Assembly: GCA_963575645.1 (NCBI GenBank)
Contig: OY754470.1
Span: 50,561,201-50,625,200, forward strand
Source of the DNA: Xanthostigma xanthostigma
Lineage: Eukaryota > Arthropoda > Insecta > Raphidioptera > Raphidiidae
Direction of reading: 5' to 3'
DNA: 64,000 nt
The notes under the pieces are model-generated. The model did no database searches, was not told where the DNA came from, and saw only the letters and a program-made list of their open reading frames with translations. Of this stretch, positions 6,050 through 61,100 are shown piece after piece. Every line of letters begins with the position of its first letter. The first letter of the stretch is position 1. The position numbers and the translations under genes were made by a program.

Positions 6050-6490
6050 AAAATATAGTTTAAAAAAAACTAAAAAACACGCTTTATATCGCACTAAAAA
6101 GTAAAAAATAATTGTTTTAAAATAAGCTTAAAAAGCGTTGGGCGCTCGATGTACGAAAATGTGGAACAAAGCGCCCCACGCTTTTTAAGCTTATTTTAAA
6201 ACAATTATTTTTTACTTTTTAGTGCGATATAAAGCGTGTTTTTTAGTTTTTTTTAAACTATATTTTATTTTTCACTTTTTAGTTTGAGGATCTATAAAAG
6301 AATTTATTAATCCTGGGGGTCCTAATAAGGATAATGGGAAACTGTTATCAAATTATTGCATTGTCATCGGTCCTTGATACGTATGCAAAGTTTCAAATTA
6401 ATCAGACTTCGGGAAATTGGTGAAAATTATGCTCAAAGATTCCGTTACATACTTACAACCCAAACTAATATAAAGCGTTTAAAAATAGAA
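6050..6490 (+). mobile_element. Hairpin-headed dispersed element, copy 1
   Basis: It opens with a perfect inverted repeat: two 89-nt arms (6050-6138 and 6178-6266) around a 39-nt loop (6139-6177). Then comes a conserved body (from about 6286, starting gaggatctataaaag) of some 200 bp, ending near aatataaagcgttt. The same structure recurs at 21724-22456 in the same orientation, but with the loop inverted and the body partly tandemly repeated. There is no transposase. The body's tail (tttcaaattaatc, gacttcgggaaattgg, tgctcaaagattccgttac) resembles 3' tails of non-autonomous insect repeats. Family unknown. Confidence 0.75.
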
Positions 6491-6822: not shown

Positions 6823-9248
6823 CCCTAGGATGCATAAGGTGAGTCTGCGGGACTCACGCTGTTAGTTGAAGTTGCGTATTATCGTAACCGATAAAGCTAC
6901 AATATTTTCGCTTTAGGAATGCTTTATTTAAACTGTTTTATAACACCTTCTTTGCACATATAATTACCAGGATTTCCACAAAAAAAATTATAACAATATT
7001 TTCACCTGTACCACGTTTGTACATAAGGTGAGTCTCTGAGACTCAGGTATAAATATAGCTTTACTTGGAGGTATTCGTAAATGGCAACGTTGTAAATCTT
7101 AAATGTTATGTCTATAGTTATGTTTATAGTTGTGTCTATGGTTTTGTTTATTGTTATTTATACATAATGGGTGTTCGATACTTATCAGAGGAGTTCATTC
7201 AGTTCTCGTGAATTTGAGTGCATAGACGTTTTTCTTGTTATATTTTATCAGTGTTCCAGAGTTTGCTTGAGTTATTAATTGTCAGGTAAGAGTATTTATA
7301 TATTACTAATTGTGTTCCTTAGGGATATTACACATGGATGGTGGATAATAAAGGAGTCCGTACTGTATTTATAACTTTTTTATATAAAACATTTATTTTT
7401 TAGTACATCATTGTAATATGGCATCAGGTCGCAAAAATAGGTCGTCAGTTAGGTGCAATGATCCTGATTTTGATCAGATAGTTCTACAGTGGACTGCTGA
7501 GGCCGAATCAGATTTTTCTAGTTCCAGTGACGACTCAGAATTCGATGAGGATTTTATTCCAGAAACACCCGATAGTGACGAAGAATATGCAAGTTCGTCT
7601 GATAGCGAAGAAGAAGAAAACGTGTCGAGTAATAACGATACTCAGGATGAAACAGTTATGGTTGGATTAAATGGTTATAAATGGAAATCTATTGCCCCTC
7701 CTCCAACAAAAAGTCTTTGTCATAACATTGTACGTTTTACTGCCGGTCCAAGACAACGAAATAAAATTTTTTCCGTGCTCGATTCTTGGAATGCATTTAT
7801 AACTGAAGAAATTGTTCAAGAAATTGTTATTTGCACAAATAGAGAAGCAAATCGACAGTATTCTGCAAAAGGAAAAACATGGAAGAACACGGACGTTGTC
7901 GAACTGAACGCTTTTTTTGGATTGCTGATGTTGGCTGGAGTTGAGAAGCAGTGGGATAACTCAATACGGGAACTATTCTTGGATAAATGTTCCAATCCTA
8001 TGTACAGAGCAACAATGTCTGTAAATCGGTTTGAGAATATACGACGATTTGTCATGATAAAAGAACTCGTGCAGCGCGTCTAGAAACAGACAAACTCGCA
8101 CCAATACGATATGTCTGGGAACTATTTCTTACTCAGTGCAGGAAAAATATGATTCCAAAAGTGAATTTGACAATTGATGAGCAGTTGCTTGGATTTCGAG
8201 GACGCTGTGGTTTTATTCAGTATATGCCAAGCAAGCCTGCGAAATATGGCATTAAATTTTTCTGGATGTGCGAAAGTGAAACTGGCTATGCTATTGATGG
8301 GTTGATTTATATTGGCAAACAGCCTGGTGAAGAAGTGCAACACAATTTAGGAAAGACAATAGTCAATAAACTTACGGATTGTGTCAAAAACACATCTCGA
8401 AACTTGACATGTGATAATTTCTTTGCCAGTGTGCCGTTATTTGAGGACCTTTTAAAAATAGGAATTACTTCCGTAGGAACGATTCGCCAAAACAAAAGAG
8501 AAATACCACTCAGCCTCAAAGCTTCTAAGGACCGACCAGTATATTCTTCAATGTTCGGATTTAACGAAAACCTTACAATAGTAAGTTATGTACCAAAAAA
8601 GAATAAAGCGGTTACCCTTCTAAGTACTTTGCACCACGATACTATGGTAAATGAAAACAGTGCAAAGAAGAAGCCAGAAATCATTGAATTTTATAATAAA
8701 ACAAAAGGAGGCGTCGACCATATGGATCAAATGGTGGGGAATTATACTTGCAAAAGGCAAACAAGACGATGGCCTTTTGCGGTATTTTCTAACATGTTAG
8801 ATGTCGCTGCTCTTAACGCATTTTTTTGTATACATTTGAAATCGGCAAAAGTCATCGAAGGCGACTTTTTATAAAAGATCTTTGCAAGGCATTAGTGACA
8901 CCCTGCATGGTAAGAAGGTCTAAAAACCCATATTTGCGCAAAGAAACATTGAACGACATGAAAATGTTTATCGAAATTACGACACCAACCGCAAATGAAG
9001 AACTACCAGCAAAAAAACGGCGTTGTTACGAATGTCCCTCTAAATTAGGTAGAATGAGTAAAGTTATATGTAGCAAATGTACAAAAAATGTATGTAGGGA
9101 ACATAGTTCTATAATTTGCAATAATTGTAAATAAATATTATAAATATATAATTTTGTTTTTTATGCTCAATTCAATGTATCTCTGTTATGAGTCTCGCAG
9201 ACTCACCTTATGTAAAAGTGTAAAATTTTAACCTTATGCATCCTAGGG
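6823..9248 (+). mobile_element. piggyBac DNA transposon, 2426 bp, near-complete
   Basis: The termini are perfect 18-bp inverted repeats: ccctaggatgcataaggt at 6823-6840 and its reverse complement at 9231-9248. They are flanked on both sides by TTAA (6819-6822 and 9249-9252), the diagnostic piggyBac target. Subterminal repeats with an ATAAGGTGAGTCT...AGACTC motif occur at 6834-6857, 7022-7046 and, inverted, about 9189-9213. That asymmetric internal repeat is common in piggyBac ends. The interior holds one plus-strand transposase gene (7418-9134). Intact ends and target duplication with only two frame breaks suggest a young insertion. It could be mobilised in trans if a functional relative exists (inference). 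Confidence 0.95.
7418..9134 (+). pseudogene. piggyBac transposase with two frameshifts
   Basis: Three overlapping plus-strand frames (7418-8083, 8149-8874 and about 8840-9134) together give a PGBD4-like DDE transposase. The N-terminus is acidic and serine-rich (residues about 25-75), as in piggyBac transposases. The catalytic aspartates sit in TIDEQLLGFRGR, LTCDNFFAS and KGGVDHMDQM. The C-terminus carries a Cys/His cross-brace finger (CYEC, CSKC, CREH, CNNC). The first break lies near 8050-8060, where the stretch reading HDKRTRAARLETD continues in another frame. The second is near 8840-8850, after NAFFCIHLKS. All four catalytic acidic positions remain. As it stands it should not make full-length protein. 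Sequencing error could explain either break. Confidence 0.9.
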
Positions 9249-16930: not shown

Positions 16931-17604
16931 TTTTATATTTCACATCTGCCATCAGGCGTCCCACGACGGTTGACATTTTTTTAGGAAAAAATACATTTAA
17001 AAAATGTATTCATGAGCCCTAGACATCAAGTTTGACTTTGGATTTCATTCTGACGGTGGACCGACCTTATATTAATTATAATTATATTATTTGACATTTT
17101 TCTTCTGTTTCACGTTTACATTGGAATTCTCCCGAGCGTATTGACATGGCTGATTATATCAGAAGATGTAGAGGCCAATTAAGCCATATTATATTTAAAA
17201 AAAAATTATTTGACAGATATAGAGATATGATGCATTTAACACATATAAATGGTAATTCGTACATGTGACGTAAACCATAATAGATTAAAAAAATTTATAT
17301 ATAATATAATGGTTACAAAAATAGTTTCGATTGGGCTATATAATTATTATTAATGGTGTATCACAATTTAATAGAATATCTGCACCAGTTTCAAATTATA
17401 TTTATTTAATGCATCTAGAATCTAGATAATACACCTGCGTTTATTTACGTTAAAGGCTGTGTTAACACACTGATACTAATTTGTTATCAACACGTGATAT
17501 TTTTATTTACTAACAAAGAAATGAGAACTCAGACATGTAAAATCGTTTTGTAAGAATTCTTATTATATTTCTTCACTTTTTAGATAAATATTGACACACT
17601 TTAA

Positions 17605-18024
17605 GAGTATTCGTCTCTGCAAATACCCCCTGCACCCTTCATCTCAAATCTTTTCCCCTCGCCTAAAAACGGTTCGCGCTCTCCCGACGCTATTTTTAAA
17701 GCTAGAGGGTTTTGGTAAACGCCAAATGAAAGACAAAGAATCAGACTACAGATCCTTCAGGCGAATTTTTTGAAAAACAGTTTCGCCTACGTGTGAAATA
17801 TTACGTAACTTATTATTTTTTTCAAAAGGTTGTAAGTTTTTTTAGGAATTTTTTTTCAAAAAATTCGCCTGAAGGATCTGTAGTCTGATTCTTTGTCTTT
17901 CATTTGGCGTTTACCAGAATCCTCTAGCTTTAAAAATAGCGTCGGGAGAGCGCGAACCGTTTTAAGGCGAGGGGAAAAGATTTGAGATGAAGGGTGCAGG
18001 GGGTGTTTGCAGGGACGAATACTC
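17605..18024. mobile_element. Foldback element with TTAA target duplication, 420 bp
   Basis: Two arms of about 170-180 bp (17605-17780 and 17850-18024) are about 97% identical as reverse complements, around a loop of roughly 70-85 bp. The ends read GAGTATTCGTC... and ...GACGAATACTC, and both sides are flanked by TTAA (17601-17604 and 18025-18028). Near-identical arms suggest recent origin or ongoing arm conversion. TTAA targeting is typical of piggyBac, but the terminal bases GAG do not match usual piggyBac CCY ends, so the mobilising enzyme is uncertain. Mirror-image short ORFs on the two arms (60 and 64 codons) are by-products of the palindrome. Confidence 0.85.
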
Positions 18025-18314
18025 TTAATCAGGACCAATTTTTTTACCATGAAACTGTGAAAGGAAATAAAAAAAATGTGGAAAGCGGTTGACGGTGGGT
18101 GAACCCTAAAACTCCTCGCTATATGTGTTAGATAGTTAGATTGTATAGAACTATTATTATATAGACGCTGCTGAGATCATCATGTTTTAAATACGTTACA
18201 ATCAATTCGTATAATAGCTTCTTAAGGCGGAAACTCGATATTAGAAAATTGGACCGAAACCAATAACATCCCTATTTTTGAAAATTAAATCTAAAATTTT
18301 CAGGCCTGTTGTGC

Positions 18315-21723: not shown

Positions 21724-22456
21724 AAAATATAGTTTAAAAAAAACTAAAAAACACGCTTTATATCGCACTAAAAAGTAAAAAATAATTGTTTTAAAATAAG
21801 CTTAAAAAGCGTGGGGCGCTTTGTTCCACATTTTCGTACATCGAGCGCCCAACGCTTTTTAAGCTTATTTTAAAACAATTATTTTTTACTTTTTAGTGCG
21901 ATATAAAGCGTGTTTTTTAGTTTTTTTTAAACTATATTTTATTTTTCACTTTTTAGTTTGAGGATCTATAAAAGAATTTATTAATCCTGGGGGTCCTAAT
22001 AAGGATAATGGGAAACTGTTATCAAATTATTGCATTGTCATCGGTCCTTGATACGTATGCAAAGTTTCAAATTAATCTGAGGATCTATAAAAGAATTTAT
22101 TAATCCTGGGGGTCCTAATAAGGATAATGGGAAACTGTTATCAAATTATTGCATTGTCATCGGTCCTTGATACGTATGCAAAGTTTCAAATTAATCAGAC
22201 TTCGGGAAATTGGTGAAAATAAAGCGTTTACTACAGAGGATCTATAAAAGAATTTATTAATCCTGGGGGTCCTAATAAGGATAATGGGAAACTGTTATCA
22301 AATTATTGCATTGTCATCGGTCCTTGATACGTATGCAAAGTTTCAAATTAATCAGACTTCGGGAAATTGGTGAAAATTATGCTCAAAGATTCCGTTACGG
22401 AGTTAGTTACATACATACATACATATTTACAACCCAAACTAATATAAAGCGTTTAA
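21724..22456 (+). mobile_element. Hairpin-headed dispersed element, copy 2, with tandem body
   Basis: The 89-nt arms (21724-21812 and 21852-21940) are perfect reverse complements and appear identical to those at 6050-6266. The 39-nt loop (21813-21851) is the exact reverse complement of copy 1's loop. The downstream body has the same orientation as copy 1 but is present as three units starting with gaggatctataaaag at 21960, 22079 and 22236. The first two are truncated and the last is full length, ending in a short CATA tract and aatataaagcgttt. This structure suggests unequal exchange or replication slippage. No transposase is present. Confidence 0.8.
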
Positions 22457-22556
22457 AAAAGCAATTTGCCTACTTATTACGCTGTAGGTACTGGTTACGA
22501 TAATATTTGTTTTTTTTAGTTTCATCTTTTAAAATATGGTTATTTGTGTCTTTATA

Positions 22557-31065: not shown

Positions 31066-32044
31066 TCTGAATATGACACAGACCTGAAAATAAAATCTTA
31101 ATTTAATAATGTGTGTAAGTTTCTAGAAAAATGACAAGTCGCGGTCTATAAGAGAGACACTTATGTAGATTGTAAAAAAATGTTGTTACTAATCCCTTCT
31201 AAAAAGAGCCTATGCAACAACAAAAGAAATGAAAATCTATAAAAATGTTTGCCGGTTTGAAGGTTTGAGAAACAATTACTTCTGAATACCCCAAAGCAGG
31301 AAAAAGGTACCATACTTACGTAGCATACTTAGAGCCAGAACAAAATCAGAAAGCTATATTGTAGAAAATATCTCAATTTAATTAATTCAAAGAAACTAAT
31401 TACCTAATATTAATTTATTCGTTGCTAAAAGCCACTAATAGAACTGCAAAATAATACTTGTTAGTTTGTAATTCAATTGTTCATATTCTGATTAGCTAAA
31501 CAAAAAAATATTTATTTAGCACTGTTATTATTTATGTATGTCACGAATATATTTTATTATAACAGAATTATTTGTTGTATACTCGGTAGAAAAATTCAGT
31601 TTTTTTTGTAATAAAAAATAACATTTGTTGCTCATTGAATTTTTGTATGCCAATAAACACAAAATTAATAATAATGAATGAACAAAATATACCAAATCTG
31701 GCAATTCATAAACTACAGTTGTGACGATAAAAATATAGCTACTGATTTAGACGATGTCCGTCATTAATAATAATGTAATGCCTTATTTTAGAAAAATAAT
31801 TGTGTTGAAAAAAAATAATGATCTCACATTATATTTCAAATTAAAATTAAGACATTGTCTAAAAAATAAATGTTAGAAAATACATAAAAACATTTTTTAT
31901 GAATGCATCATTATTACCAGTTTTAAAGTAAATTGTATAATTGCTAATGATTTTAAAAACGATTTAAATCAAAGCTGATTGCGCCATATAATAATGAAAT
32001 GACGCATCAAAAGGAAAATATGAAAAGAACTTAAAAATAAAATT

Positions 32045-32220
32045 GAACCTTCTTCAAAAAAAGCCTCTAAAAACCGTAAAATAATAAAGTTTTGAGGTCG
32101 TCACCAATTTAATAACATTACCTTTTTATGTACCTAAGCACCTATGAACTTTATTAAATTGGCGCCGAACTCAAAACTTTATTATTTTACATTTTATAAT
32201 AGCCTTTATTGAAGTAGGTT
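32045..32220. repeat. Inverted-repeat MITE-like element (about 70-bp arms)
   Basis: The left arm (32048-32115) and right arm (32148-32219) share gtaaaataataaagttttga and an ccaatttaataa block in inverse orientation, separated by about 32 nt. No target duplication could be read. Non-coding. Confidence 0.65.
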
Positions 32221-34789
32221 TATTATTTTTTTTTTATTTTTCATTTGATAATGCGTAGTTTGCAAATTATTAGCCGTCTTCATTCTTAATATTTAATTAA
32301 ACTGTTGAACCGATTTATGTAAAATTTGTGTGAGACCACCCTTATTGTATGCCCTCTTAAATAGAAAAAGAAATGTCAAAATCGGTACACAAATAAAATT
32401 GTATTATACCATTTTATAACCATTTTAAATAAAATGGTGTCGAAATTTTTGAAAAATTCTAGAATTTTTTACATTTTGCCAGCTTTAGCGATTTTTAACT
32501 TGTAAATCTGTGAAATGCCATAAATAGTAAATTCCTATGTGGGAATGTAGATCTACCCATGGGCTTTCCAACTGTATCGAAAAATTCGAACATTTGTTCG
32601 CTACCATCTTACAGAAATATTTTTTTCAAGATAGCACTTTTTGACGAAAACTGGAGACATATTAGGCATGAAGTGTTCTAGTAGAAGGGTGTGCAAAAAC
32701 ATATAATTCCTGCACGCAGGAGTTGTAGATCTAACCTTGGGATTACTTTTGACATATTAAAGCAAAAAAATTACACTTCTGTCAACGCGTGTGGTGTCAC
32801 GGGTAATGGCTAGTAATAAATATTATGATATTTGCCATTCGTTTGCATGGCTATATAATATGGTTTCGAATGTAAAAAAAATACGAACAGCTGAATTTAT
32901 TTCTATTTTCAAAATATTTCCGAAACTATAAAATTTCGAAAAAATCTTTTTGTACGATAGTTAGTTTCTTGGAATAAAAATATTTGAAAAGTATACCATT
33001 AGGTATAATAAGTAAAACAACATTTGAGTGAAAACGAAAGAATATTGTGAAATTTTGAAATGTGAATTTTTGCCAAAATTAATATCATTTCCGAATTGTA
33101 GAGTTGGAATGGTAATGTATAAGAATTAGAAAAAAGGCAAAGTTCACCACACTTCTTTAAAAATCAGCTATACTGATGTTCTGCCTAAATAACTATAATT
33201 ACCAATCAGACACGTTAGTCCTAATTAGTTATTAGACCAGTATTTTAATACATTTTGTGTAGACAATTGTAGACATTAAAAGCCTAACGAAATTTAATTG
33301 TTTATTATAGAGGTATGTGTTATTAAGGTCGGTTGAAGGCTGAATTATTATAATCAAATAAACAATAATGCATAATAAAATCGACCCCTATACAAATTCG
33401 TATTGATATGTCAACAGTTTCTTTGAATATTTATTAAACTTTTATCAAATTATGTTAAATATTCTTTCTCAACAATTCGTATAAAGTCTATAAAAAAATG
33501 AAAACTTTAGATCTTGTAGATTTATAGACACTCAACAACAAAGGCCGTAAAATTTAGTCAATTGCTGTTTTTAGTTAAAAAATATTTGGGATAATATCGT
33601 AATACTGGTTATATTAATTTGGGATTAAAAAAATGATCCCGTCCTTATACTGAGATAAAAAAAAACATTAAGATCTGTGCATTTCTAAAGAAGCTATTCT
33701 CAACGAAAAATTCCTCAGAAACAGAGGTAAGCACAGCCGTCATGCGGAAAGTCAAGTTTTATTACCCCGAACACGAGTTTTCGATTCATCATTATAATAT
33801 AATATGTACTTCATTTTCCATACGGCAGTACCAACCCGGTTTTGTTGAAAATCATTTATCTTAGAGCGAATTGCTACAAAAATCATATTTTATCTTATAT
33901 TAAATAGGTTTATAATTGTTGTTTATACTTCGATAAAGGCAGCAGCTTGTGCAAGCGGCCAAAATGTACGTAGTACCTATTCATAAAAAGATTAGGTATG
34001 CGTATACTCACCAAAAAATAACGTTAAAGCACTGAAACTTAGATTGTAAGTTACTTATTTGATGTCTAAGACTCCACAAACTCTATGACAAATTTTCCAT
34101 CAGTAAGTTAAACTTTATATAGATATTATTTAAACGAAATTGCTGGTGGGAGCTGTCATTACCCAATTTGCAACACGTGAAAATATAGGTATAATATAAT
34201 ATCCACAATACAAAAAAATATGTTGCAATTTGTTGATTGTCAACGTTATTATTATAATGGCAGGATAAGACTGGGTATTGTTAATTGATTAAAATGGGAC
34301 ATAATCACTGTAATAGTTTTGTATATTTGGTACTAGGTAGGTATATCAAATAGTTGGGTATTTGAATAAAAAAAGTATTAAAATTTATTTTTTTTAATAA
34401 TTCATAATCAGTACTGAAAAGCAAAAAAAAAAAAAAATTAAAGCCATAGATAACTACCAGCAAAGTACTTATAAAATGTATCAACTTTATCAAATATTAT
34501 AGGGTGACTACTAGATTTCAATGTTGTTATGTTTTAAAATAATATACTAACGGGAAAATGAAACCTCAGCCTGAACGATGTGTGTATTTTTACTGTCAAC
34601 GTTTCGTCTACAATTTTAGACTTCTTTAGGGCTCAAAATGTGTTTTATTGCACATTGATCTTTTTTATCATTAGCCAGTTACTTTTTTGTGTTTGTTTGC
34701 CACACAATATGTTTCAATTTGTCATTATAAATCATTTTTTTTAATATTTAAGATGTTAAAAAACGTCCCAAGATATAAAAATGTTAAAA

Positions 34790-58134: not shown

Positions 58135-61100
58135 ATGGAAATTGAATTAAACAGAATCTGTAGATCCTGCATGTCGTTTGATAGTGATATGTGCTCGCTT
58201 TTTGACACAGCAGAAATAATGGGTGGCCAAATAGTTTTGAGTGAAATGTTAATGGCGTGTGCTTCTTTGGACGTAAGTTTTTTTTAAAAACTCCCATCTT
58301 TATTCGGCTAATATGCATAATGTATTATTTACGTGGAATTATAAATCTACTTTTAGGTAAAATTAGATGAAAATATGCCATCATCTATATGTTTGGACTG
58401 TGTCAATCAATTAAACAATGCGTATCATTTCAAACAGCAGTGCGAGAAAACCGACATAAACCTACGTAATCTATTGAACTTACCACCAGCCTCTTCATCT
58501 GTGATTGTAGTTGATAATAACGTAATTCAACTGTTAGTGAAACAGCAAGAGAGCAATAAAAATTCCAACAATAGTTGCAATAATATTATCGTAGATACTT
58601 TTAATGAATGTGAATTAACTAATGATGGCGAAGATTCGAATTTATGTGAAATTGTATCTGATTTTTCGAAGAATAACGAGTTTCATCAAATTATTTCTAA
58701 TGAAAAACAATATTTCTGTAAAATTTGTAATGACATTTTCAAAAATGAAAATCTTCTATGTTTACATGAACAGTCGCACAATAATTCACCAATTAATTAT
58801 AAATCTGAAATTTGTGATAAAAATTTTGACCATACCGAATTATTAAAAGACCATAAAATAGCACATGAAAGGGAAAGCTTGCTATCAGATAATTTGAATG
58901 GCAATGTGTTCAATGTTACTGACGAACTGATCAAAGAAGAGGAATCGAATGTTCTTCTCGAAGAAATTGCATTACTGATAGAAGAAAGAAAAACTCAAAA
59001 TGTTGAAAATGTGTGTAGTAATTATAATAGCGAAGATGCACGAACAACTTTTAATAATCACCATTTGATCATAAATTTGGGAAACACGTCGACCGAAAAA
59101 GAAGTAAATTACGAAACGAAAACTGAAGACTTTTTAGACGATTCGAATAGTATAAATGACAAAGCAGTAATAGAAAACGCAATTACTAGCAAAAAGCGTA
59201 TAGCGCGTTACACGTGCCCAGTTTGCAAAAAATATTTCAAAATTTCAAGCAGTTTCTACAAGCATATATCGATACACAAACGCACGAAATTATTAGACGC
59301 CAACCAATTCAGAGACAAATATAAATGTCGATTTTGTGGAAAGTCGTTTGATTCTGTGTACATATTGAATGGACATATTATGTCGATGCATAGAAATGGT
59401 GAAATTAAAAATATACGGGAAGGCGGAACTTGTGACGTTTGTAATGAAAATTTTGAGAGCTCGCGTAAATTATTAAAGCATTTTCAAAGACATGTGTCGG
59501 CATCGTTGAATTTTACATTTGATAAATTAAAATACGAATCCAGTAATGGCTGGCCTTGTTACATGTGCAGTGATAAATTTGCAACTGTTGCAGAGTTGGA
59601 TGCTCACATGGAAAAACATAACGTCGACAGCGACGGCAATTTCGTGTGCGGCATGTGTGAATGCACTTTTAGAAAAGAATTGGCTCTAAAGAAACATTTA
59701 AAAACGCACGGCATTCAACCGTTCGCCTGCAATATTTGTCTACTCAGTTTCGAAACTCGAATTCGACTGAAACAGCATGCCGACGCGCACAACCAACGGA
59801 AATTGAAAAATTCCTTCAAATGTCTGCTTTGTGATGAATGTTTTTTTGAACGTAATCAACTTCAAGCTCATATAACGGTTCACACGGCCGACGCGTTCAG
59901 GTAAATATAATACCTTTATAATTGATGGAGAATTTATGTTCGAGAAAGTACCAATACCTAATTACAATTATTATTGTGAACAATGGTTTCGTGCCAATTA
60001 TTATCAATCACGTCTGAGTATGAAAAATGGCACAATAGGGAATTTGTATGATTTTAGAAATGACTGGAAACTTAAAGATTTCAATAGGCTATTTGACTAA
60101 TTTGACACTAAAATACACATTATTAAATTATGTGAATACGATAACTTATCGAAAAAGAAATCGGAAAGCATCGGTTTGCATTAACAAATTTCAATTTTAA
60201 AATTGCAATTTTTTGACATGTCAAAAAGCGCTACCTACAATGATGGTTTGACGTGTGGCGTCAGACTTGTAGTTAACACGCGTCATAGACCTTATATAAA
60301 CACACAAATCACGGTACACTTGTAGTTGTTTGTAATTTGTATTAACTATAAAAATGGCGTCTCACTAAGTATTGCCATGTGGCTCGTGTTTGCGAACTAA
60401 ATTTTTAATGCTATTTTATCCTATAAAAGAATTTCATATTTACGACTTACGAAATGTTCTCTATTTTGTGTGGGAAATCGATTGCCTTAGATGTAACCAG
60501 TGCGGTGTAACATTCAACTGTGAAGCGTCGTTTGAATCTCATTCTAAATCGCATTCTCTGCTCCATTTGTGTTCACTGTGCGGAGAACAGTTTCGTACAA
60601 ACGGGAAACTGCAGAGTCATTTACGCAAACACAACAATGAGAAACCGTATATGTGCGTCGTCTGCAACAAAGGCTACAGTTCAAAATCGGTCCTGAAAGT
60701 TCATCAGCGCATTCATGCCAATTACAAGCCGTACATTTGCAGTTACTGTGGCTATAGTTGTTGTCAGTCCGGAGATTTGCAAATGCATATTCGAACTCAC
60801 ACAGGTAAGTTTTATGCAAATTTATGGGACAAGTACAATGTGATATTTTTGAGCGCTCGCATAATTTGCTAAATATAACGTCGAGCTACCCAAAATTTGC
60901 TTTTTCAAAAATGTCGATATACATATTATATCCGTTTCGTTTGGCCTCTAACCCTTAAACTTGTTTGTATTGCTACAGTATTATTTATTAATTTACTAGC
61001 GGCTTGTTTCACCCAGGTGCGATAGATATATTCTGTGCTGTCGTAAAATTCTGCAAAATGTATTTCATTAAGAAACGACTACAGCGCCGAAATGTCTGAA

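Follow-up and report, generated by a model that had tools for sequence, protein, structure and literature searches.

HINE/DINE-1-like elements are non-autonomous Helentrons, and we compare them here by the features given in the part of Thomas et al. (2014; PMC4067079) on which we draw. An element of similar build occurs twice in the stretch of DNA analysed here (the window), 64,000 nucleotides of the genome of Xanthostigma xanthostigma (assembly GCA_963575645.1, contig OY754470.1, positions 50,561,201 to 50,625,200), with a G+C content of 30-35%. Like HINE/DINE-1, it has identical 11-bp subterminal inverted repeats (subTIRs) near both ends and a small palindrome near the 3' end. It also appears to share T-rich termini with a variable number of Ts, and it shares central tandem repeats with a microsatellite, a high copy number, and the absence of any coding sequence that could be seen in the ~450-740-bp window copies. 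Unlike HINE/DINE-1 as portrayed in that part of the source, the present element has its 3' end inversely duplicated, forming a hairpin with 97-nt arms in place of the 5-10-bp palindrome of HINE, and the loop of this hairpin exists in two orientations.

Several other systems share single aspects of this arrangement, as far as the parts of the papers cited below describe them. Template-switch inverted repeats, reported in yeast genes (PMC8604942) and RNA hairpins (PMC8794818), resemble the present hairpin in that the arms vary in concert and the spacer inverts with unchanged flanks. Those repeats lie in individual genes and have arms of ~7-16 bp and inverted spacers or loops only a few bases long, whereas the present one forms the end of a transposon, has 97-nt arms and is found at thousands of loci. 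Maize Heltir elements, as mentioned in PMC3422177, likewise have inverted copies of the 3' terminus of a rolling-circle element, but in the present case the inverted 3' ends adjoin back to back, at a single end of a body that is HINE-like. In the small hairpin inversions of plastids (PMC9653739) a segment also inverts between palindromic flanks, although these cases are miniature stem-loops of plastid genomes and do not belong to a mobile element in many copies. Among the titles and abstracts listed in the literature searches, which covered few subscription papers, none dealt with flipping of the loop in a Helitron or Helentron. The inverted terminal repeats (ITRs) of parvoviruses are terminal palindromes that occur in two inverted forms, flip and flop, at a ratio near 1:1. 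The present element shares the terminal palindrome in two inverted forms, but its ratio is 33:67 with a memory of lineage. Nothing viral was seen in the element, in an analysis that included no search aimed at viral features.

A sequence-only reading of the window had reported two 217-bp hairpins with perfect 89-nt arms and exactly inverted 39-nt loops. Both hairpins were found where they had been placed, at 6050-6266 and 21724-21940, and each is the exact reverse complement of the other, within an inverted match of 222 nt at 100%. The stem consists of 89 perfect pairs, one mismatch and then 7 pairs (GGGCGCT/AGCGCCC), and the tip of 23 nt (37 nt if the loop-end repeats are included) is unpaired; the reported arms and loop are this same structure cut at the mismatch. 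The short inverted repeats GGGCGCT...AGCGCCC at the loop ends, and the common orientation of the sequence outside the right arm, were also borne out. From the inner arm onward the copies run in the same direction and are 99% alike over 6170-6406 and 21844-22080. Because the arms are palindromic partners, reversal of the whole hairpin is equivalent to reversal of the loop only. Folded as single-stranded DNA, the hairpin reached -104.2 kcal/mol, compared to -25.4 kcal/mol (standard deviation 3.2) for 200 shuffled sequences (z = -25); none of the 200 folded equally well, ruling out a chance palindrome. We refer to the loop as in copy 1 as orientation A, and as in copy 2 as orientation B, in each case relative to the body. 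The features of the two copies are as follows.

6050..6266, minus strand: hairpin of copy 1, loop in orientation A; the element's terminal 3' end on this strand
6050..6146, unstranded: outer arm of copy 1, 97 nt, with 1 mismatch to the inner arm
6147..6169, unstranded: unpaired tip of copy 1; the flipped segment comprises at least the tip, GGGCGCT/AGCGCCC and the adjacent mismatch
6170..6266, unstranded: inner arm of copy 1
6079..6089, minus strand: 3' subTIR in the outer arm of copy 1, ATATAAAGCGT on this strand
6227..6237, plus strand: second, inverted 3' subTIR, in the inner arm of copy 1
6056..6072, unstranded: small 3'-end palindrome TAGTTT..AAACTA of copy 1, with an inverted duplicate at 6244-6260
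6267..6467, minus strand: body of copy 1, with one internal unit
6468..6478, plus strand: subTIR at the 5' end of copy 1, opposite the hairpin; this copy terminates in A/T-rich sequence near 6488 (approximate)
21724..21940, minus strand: hairpin of copy 2, loop in orientation B
21724..21820, unstranded: outer arm of copy 2
21844..21940, unstranded: inner arm of copy 2
21753..21763, minus strand: 3' subTIR in the outer arm of copy 2, with an inverted duplicate at 21901-21911
21941..22441, minus strand: copy 2 body, containing a TACA microsatellite and three internal units (tandem repeats of 119 and 157 bp)
22442..22452, plus strand: subTIR at the 5' end of copy 2, opposite the hairpin; this copy terminates near 22462 (approximate)

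We searched the 623-Mb assembly, which comprises 28 contigs and derives from one individual, with the 217-bp hairpin. Of 274 candidates 40 were scored, and all 40 matched the window hairpin at 100% over 217 bp. Detailed comparisons were made on a sample of 62 copies that is not random: 30 copies chosen from these 40 for identity to the window hairpin (L001-L030, all of arm haplotype h1), the first 30 places that match the orientation-A pattern (L031-L060), and the two window copies. In 30 fetched copies, one flank of the hairpin differs from copy to copy and the other side is a common body (ATTTTTCACTTTTTAGTTTGAGGATC...), which contains 119- and 157-bp tandem units and the TACA microsatellite. 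In 60 of the 62 sampled copies the body finishes in AATATAAAGCG, beyond which lies A/T-rich DNA that varies between copies; this end was absent from the stretch read in the remaining two (L018 and L040).

Read on the minus strand of the window, the element begins with TTTTTAAACGCTTTATATTAG and terminates in the hairpin. Its outer arm holds, in order, the inverted 11-bp repeat ATATAAAGCGT, the palindrome TAGTTT..AAACTA and CTATATTTT. In each of the two window copies the subTIRs (ACGCTTTATAT/ATATAAAGCGT) stand at either end, as in HINE elements, and an inverted duplicate lies in the inner arm; all 6 occurrences of the subTIR in the window fall within the two element copies. The small 3' palindrome typical of HINE is represented by TAGTTT-TTTTT-AAACTA, at a distance of 6 nt from the base of the hairpin; the subTIR lies 29 nt from it, a distance shorter than the 38-60 bp given for mite elements in the part of PMC4067079 used here. 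HINE elements insert into T-rich sequence, leave a variable number of Ts at their termini and make no target duplication. The outer ends here are T-rich and variable in length: among the 62 copies, 24 stop at the base, with T as the next base in 24/24 (by eye), 33 run on as A followed by 2-5 Ts, and 2 match for a further 1-2 bases. In the other three (L040, L044 and L055) the arm match is lost inside the outer arm. A canonical Helitron (5' TC, 3' CTRR, A/T insertion) was considered and rejected, as the ends are instead CTATATTTT(ATTTTT) and a T/A-rich stretch followed by AAACGCTTTATAT. The Helitrons described in PMC4038834 and PMC4344730, in the parts of those papers considered, have TC/CTRR-type ends, unlike the present element.

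The sequence shows, for the most part, that the hairpin is carried by a HINE/DINE-1-like element of rolling-circle type, non-autonomous, recently amplified and high in copy number. To much the same degree, the hairpin appears to be the ~97-bp 3' end of this element (subTIR, small palindrome and T-rich terminus), duplicated in inverse orientation around the tip, so that a typical copy terminates in a long hairpin that is nearly perfect. This identity, a duplicated transposon end in thousands of copies, had escaped the sequence-only reading. Genome-wide there are 3677 exact occurrences of the 29-nt loop core. A free miniature inverted-repeat transposable element inserted either way was rejected, since the same body junction is found in 2038 copies; in those copies the hairpin is therefore part of one element. 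The ~1640 loop cores with no exact body junction within 80-105 bases may be older, truncated or free-standing. A genome DNA search with the body (6270-6410) gave no candidates, very common words being skipped in that search. The Helitron_like_N domain had 89 matches in the genome, many in open frames, of 1555 aa in many copies and of 2103-2509 aa in seven, which suggests that recently active autonomous rolling-circle elements are present.

The sequence-only reading had proposed that loop orientation be compared over all genome copies. We counted orientations at places with an intact loop end and body start separated by 80-105 bases, and both orientations were found: 666 copies in A (346 and 320 on the two strands) and 1372 in B (679 and 693). 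Orientation A thus accounts for 33% of copies, far from a 1:1 ratio. A further comparison comes from the h1 copies in the sample, 31 of which (out of 32, namely the 30 chosen regardless of loop direction and the two window copies) have a readable body end. In twelve of the 31, neither the 511-bp body nor the arms differ; the loop, in orientation B in 10 and A in 2, is the sole difference over 728 bp. The loop has inverted more than once between otherwise identical copies. Orientation as a fixed marker of subfamilies was rejected, identical bodies occurring with both orientations. On a body tree of the 31 copies, orientation needs 3 changes (2 of them forced by supported branches) against 3.5 for shuffled orientations, and therefore is not clustered on that tree. 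A contrast between 1-unit and 3-unit bodies within h1 (Fisher p = 0.086 without the window copies) is suggestive only.

We then compared orientation with arm haplotype, in tables covering 100 of the 666 A places (contigs 1-2) and 66 of the 1372 B places (first 31 Mb of contig 1), with letters read by eye. Six of the seven haplotype classes occurred in both orientations (chi-square p = 0.92), including the rare GTACG class, seen once each way; the seventh, with 2 copies, occurred in A only. Counts over the genome gave a more structured picture. The GTGCG haplotype was found in 50 A and 180 B copies (p = 2e-18 against 1:1), and the share of A was 50/230 in GTGCG copies versus 616/1808 (616 A, 1192 B) in the rest (p = 2e-4), a contrast that is approximate because the rest was obtained by subtraction with slightly differing patterns. 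Fifty hairpins with C on both arms (C/C) in the first 25.4 Mb of contig 1 comprised 18 A, 29 B and 3 with no exact body junction, and their A share of 18/47 also differed from that of GTGCG (p = 0.025). We read these lineage-dependent ratios as a sign that orientation would be inherited, with occasional flips.

In 59 of the 62 copies, across 6 arm haplotypes, the two arms of a copy agree with each other everywhere but at the single mismatch position. At a variable arm site, we found C on both arms at 1188 places genome-wide versus 8 places with C on one arm only; each C/C place was counted once, the pattern being its own reverse complement, and the loop was not checked by this pattern. These counts show that mismatched arms are rarely propagated, though the 1188 places do not represent independent corrections. 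A C/A mismatch just outside GGGCGCT/AGCGCCC behaves differently from the rest of the arm. Of the 62 copies, 47 (20 A and 27 B, the latter all h1) have it, and in 47/47 the C is found on that side of the loop which has CAAAG; the remaining 15 have the same base on both arms (9 A/A, 6 C/C). As the mismatch moves with the loop, the exchange lies in the long arms and not in the loop-end repeats.

The sequence-only reading had attributed the flip to recombination between the arms or to a site-specific invertase. Exchange between the arms is upheld by the 12 identical copies and by the haplotype classes found both ways. A site-specific invertase acting at GGGCGCT...AGCGCCC, on the other hand, is improbable to the point of being negligible: the short repeats are present, but the mismatch directly outside them flips with the loop, the long arms alone suffice, and recombination bounded by short defined sites is not what was found.

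A chain that rests on sequence leads from the HINE-like end, through its inverted duplication, to repeated loop inversion and exchange in the arms. We incline, with some reserve, to the view that the loop flips through copying slips between the matching arms of the duplicated 3' end, and we infer that these would be template switches during replication of the element. The hairpin would be copied at a replication fork or in a single-stranded or rolling-circle stage, and the nascent strand would now and then jump to the matching arm of the opposite strand, copy the loop backwards and jump back, leaving the loop inverted and the flanks untouched. The same slips would make one arm the template for the other and so keep the arms matched, and daughter copies would inherit the orientation until the next slip. 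The flip shows no sign of a function of its own, and looks like a by-product of a structure perhaps kept for the end signals in each arm. What is expected of template switching was found here in two respects: the arms are homogenised within a copy though variable between copies, and the spacer is inverted with unchanged flanks (the 10 B and 2 A copies). Homogenisation of arms with reversible spacer inversion is an outcome reported for template switching at inverted repeats in the relevant part of PMC8604942, where more such switching is noted in yeast strains without RAD27. Loop inversion in RNA hairpins is ascribed to interstrand switching in what we cite from PMC8794818, and the portion of PMC9653739 considered calls hairpin inversions common in plastid genomes.

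Several points weigh against this interpretation. Template switching is deduced from its product, which could equally arise by gene conversion between copies or by reciprocal recombination of the arms. The sample of 62 copies is non-random, and the counts of matched arms go back to very few independent events, since amplified, rather than to 1188. The C/A mismatch beside the loop escapes homogenisation in 47 of the 62 copies. The flipped segment here, of at least 23 nt, is long compared to published cases: spacer inversions are short, 2-5-bp substitutions in the part of PMC8604942 considered, and loops are typically 4 and up to 7-8 nt in that of PMC8794818, where compensatory change together with loop inversion is rare (6 cases). 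Further, the genome yielded no autonomous Helentron that shares these ends, in an analysis that included no comparison with the flanks of the Helitron_like_N matches and no search for an endonuclease domain.

The main rival to template switching is ectopic homologous recombination or gene conversion among dispersed copies, where a donor hairpin can align both ways and the loop may be copied in backwards. We consider this possible but doubtful. Donors are available in thousands of near-identical copies, and ectopic conversion would likewise homogenise the arms and yield haplotypes in both orientations. However, the outer flanks vary among the copies, and short tracts from random donors predict mosaics of arm haplotypes, whereas 8 discordant places were seen against 1188 C/C; the latter argument is not decisive, as tracts could span the whole hairpin. 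An artefact of assembly or library, through polymerase template switching during library amplification or through consensus error, is very unlikely. The same mechanism could operate in vitro, and the independence of orientation from arm haplotype in the tabulated sample is what an artefact would give, but the larger counts show dependence on lineage, both for GTGCG versus the rest and for the C/C-arm copies of one stretch versus GTGCG, and the strands are balanced in both orientations.

Rolling-hairpin replication of the parvovirus ITR type, in which the 3' hairpin self-primes second-strand synthesis and resolution of the closed end inverts it, also appears unlikely. In favour of such a route, the hairpin is terminal and includes both the palindrome and the 3' subTIR, and the Rep proteins of the Helitron family belong, like parvovirus Rep, to the HUH nucleases. 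At C5:6715388-6715626 two opposite element bodies appear to stand head to head on one hairpin, as judged from adjacent matches 14 bases apart, as a turnaround intermediate could leave. However, a flip with probability one-half at each transposition predicts a 1:1 ratio without memory, whereas flip and flop were far from equal genome-wide (666:1372), in GTGCG (50:180) and among the identical copies (2:10), and by reasoning hairpin transfer alone would not homogenise the arms. An obligatory parvovirus-like flip at each transposition is thus disfavoured. The counts exclude coupling to transposition only as an obligatory 50% step and not as an occasional route, and we hold it equally unlikely that a self-priming 3' hairpin would pass through a hairpin-transfer step in part of replication, with occasional head-to-head dimers. 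If true, rolling-circle transposition and rolling-hairpin replication would here be joined in a hybrid.

At inverted repeats, the homogenisation of arms and the inversion of loops are usually studied locus by locus, and here more than 2000 hairpins have a readable loop direction. They amount to a natural assay of the frequency of strand switching at long palindromes in a eukaryotic genome. The spread of a rolling-circle-type element with an inverted-duplicated 3' end also provides a testable link from replication to hairpin-mediated mutation.

Additional arrangements of hairpins were observed. Hairpin copies in opposite orientation lie ~713 bp apart at C1:41319333/41320046, and this arrangement recurs 18 kb further on (41337353/41338067). 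The window holds two further foldbacks, at 17586-18043 (arms of 197 nt, 93% complementary, loop of 64 nt) and at 32033-32233 (arms of 83 nt, 81%). About 0.9 kb beyond copy 1, a piggyBac-like (DDE_Tnp_1_7) transposase is found in two open pieces in different frames (7418-8083 and 8149-8874, plus strand), which are probably a broken gene. C2H2 zinc-finger frames occur at 58375-59904 and 60372-60872 on the plus strand, the first with a weak zf-AD match below the cut-off.
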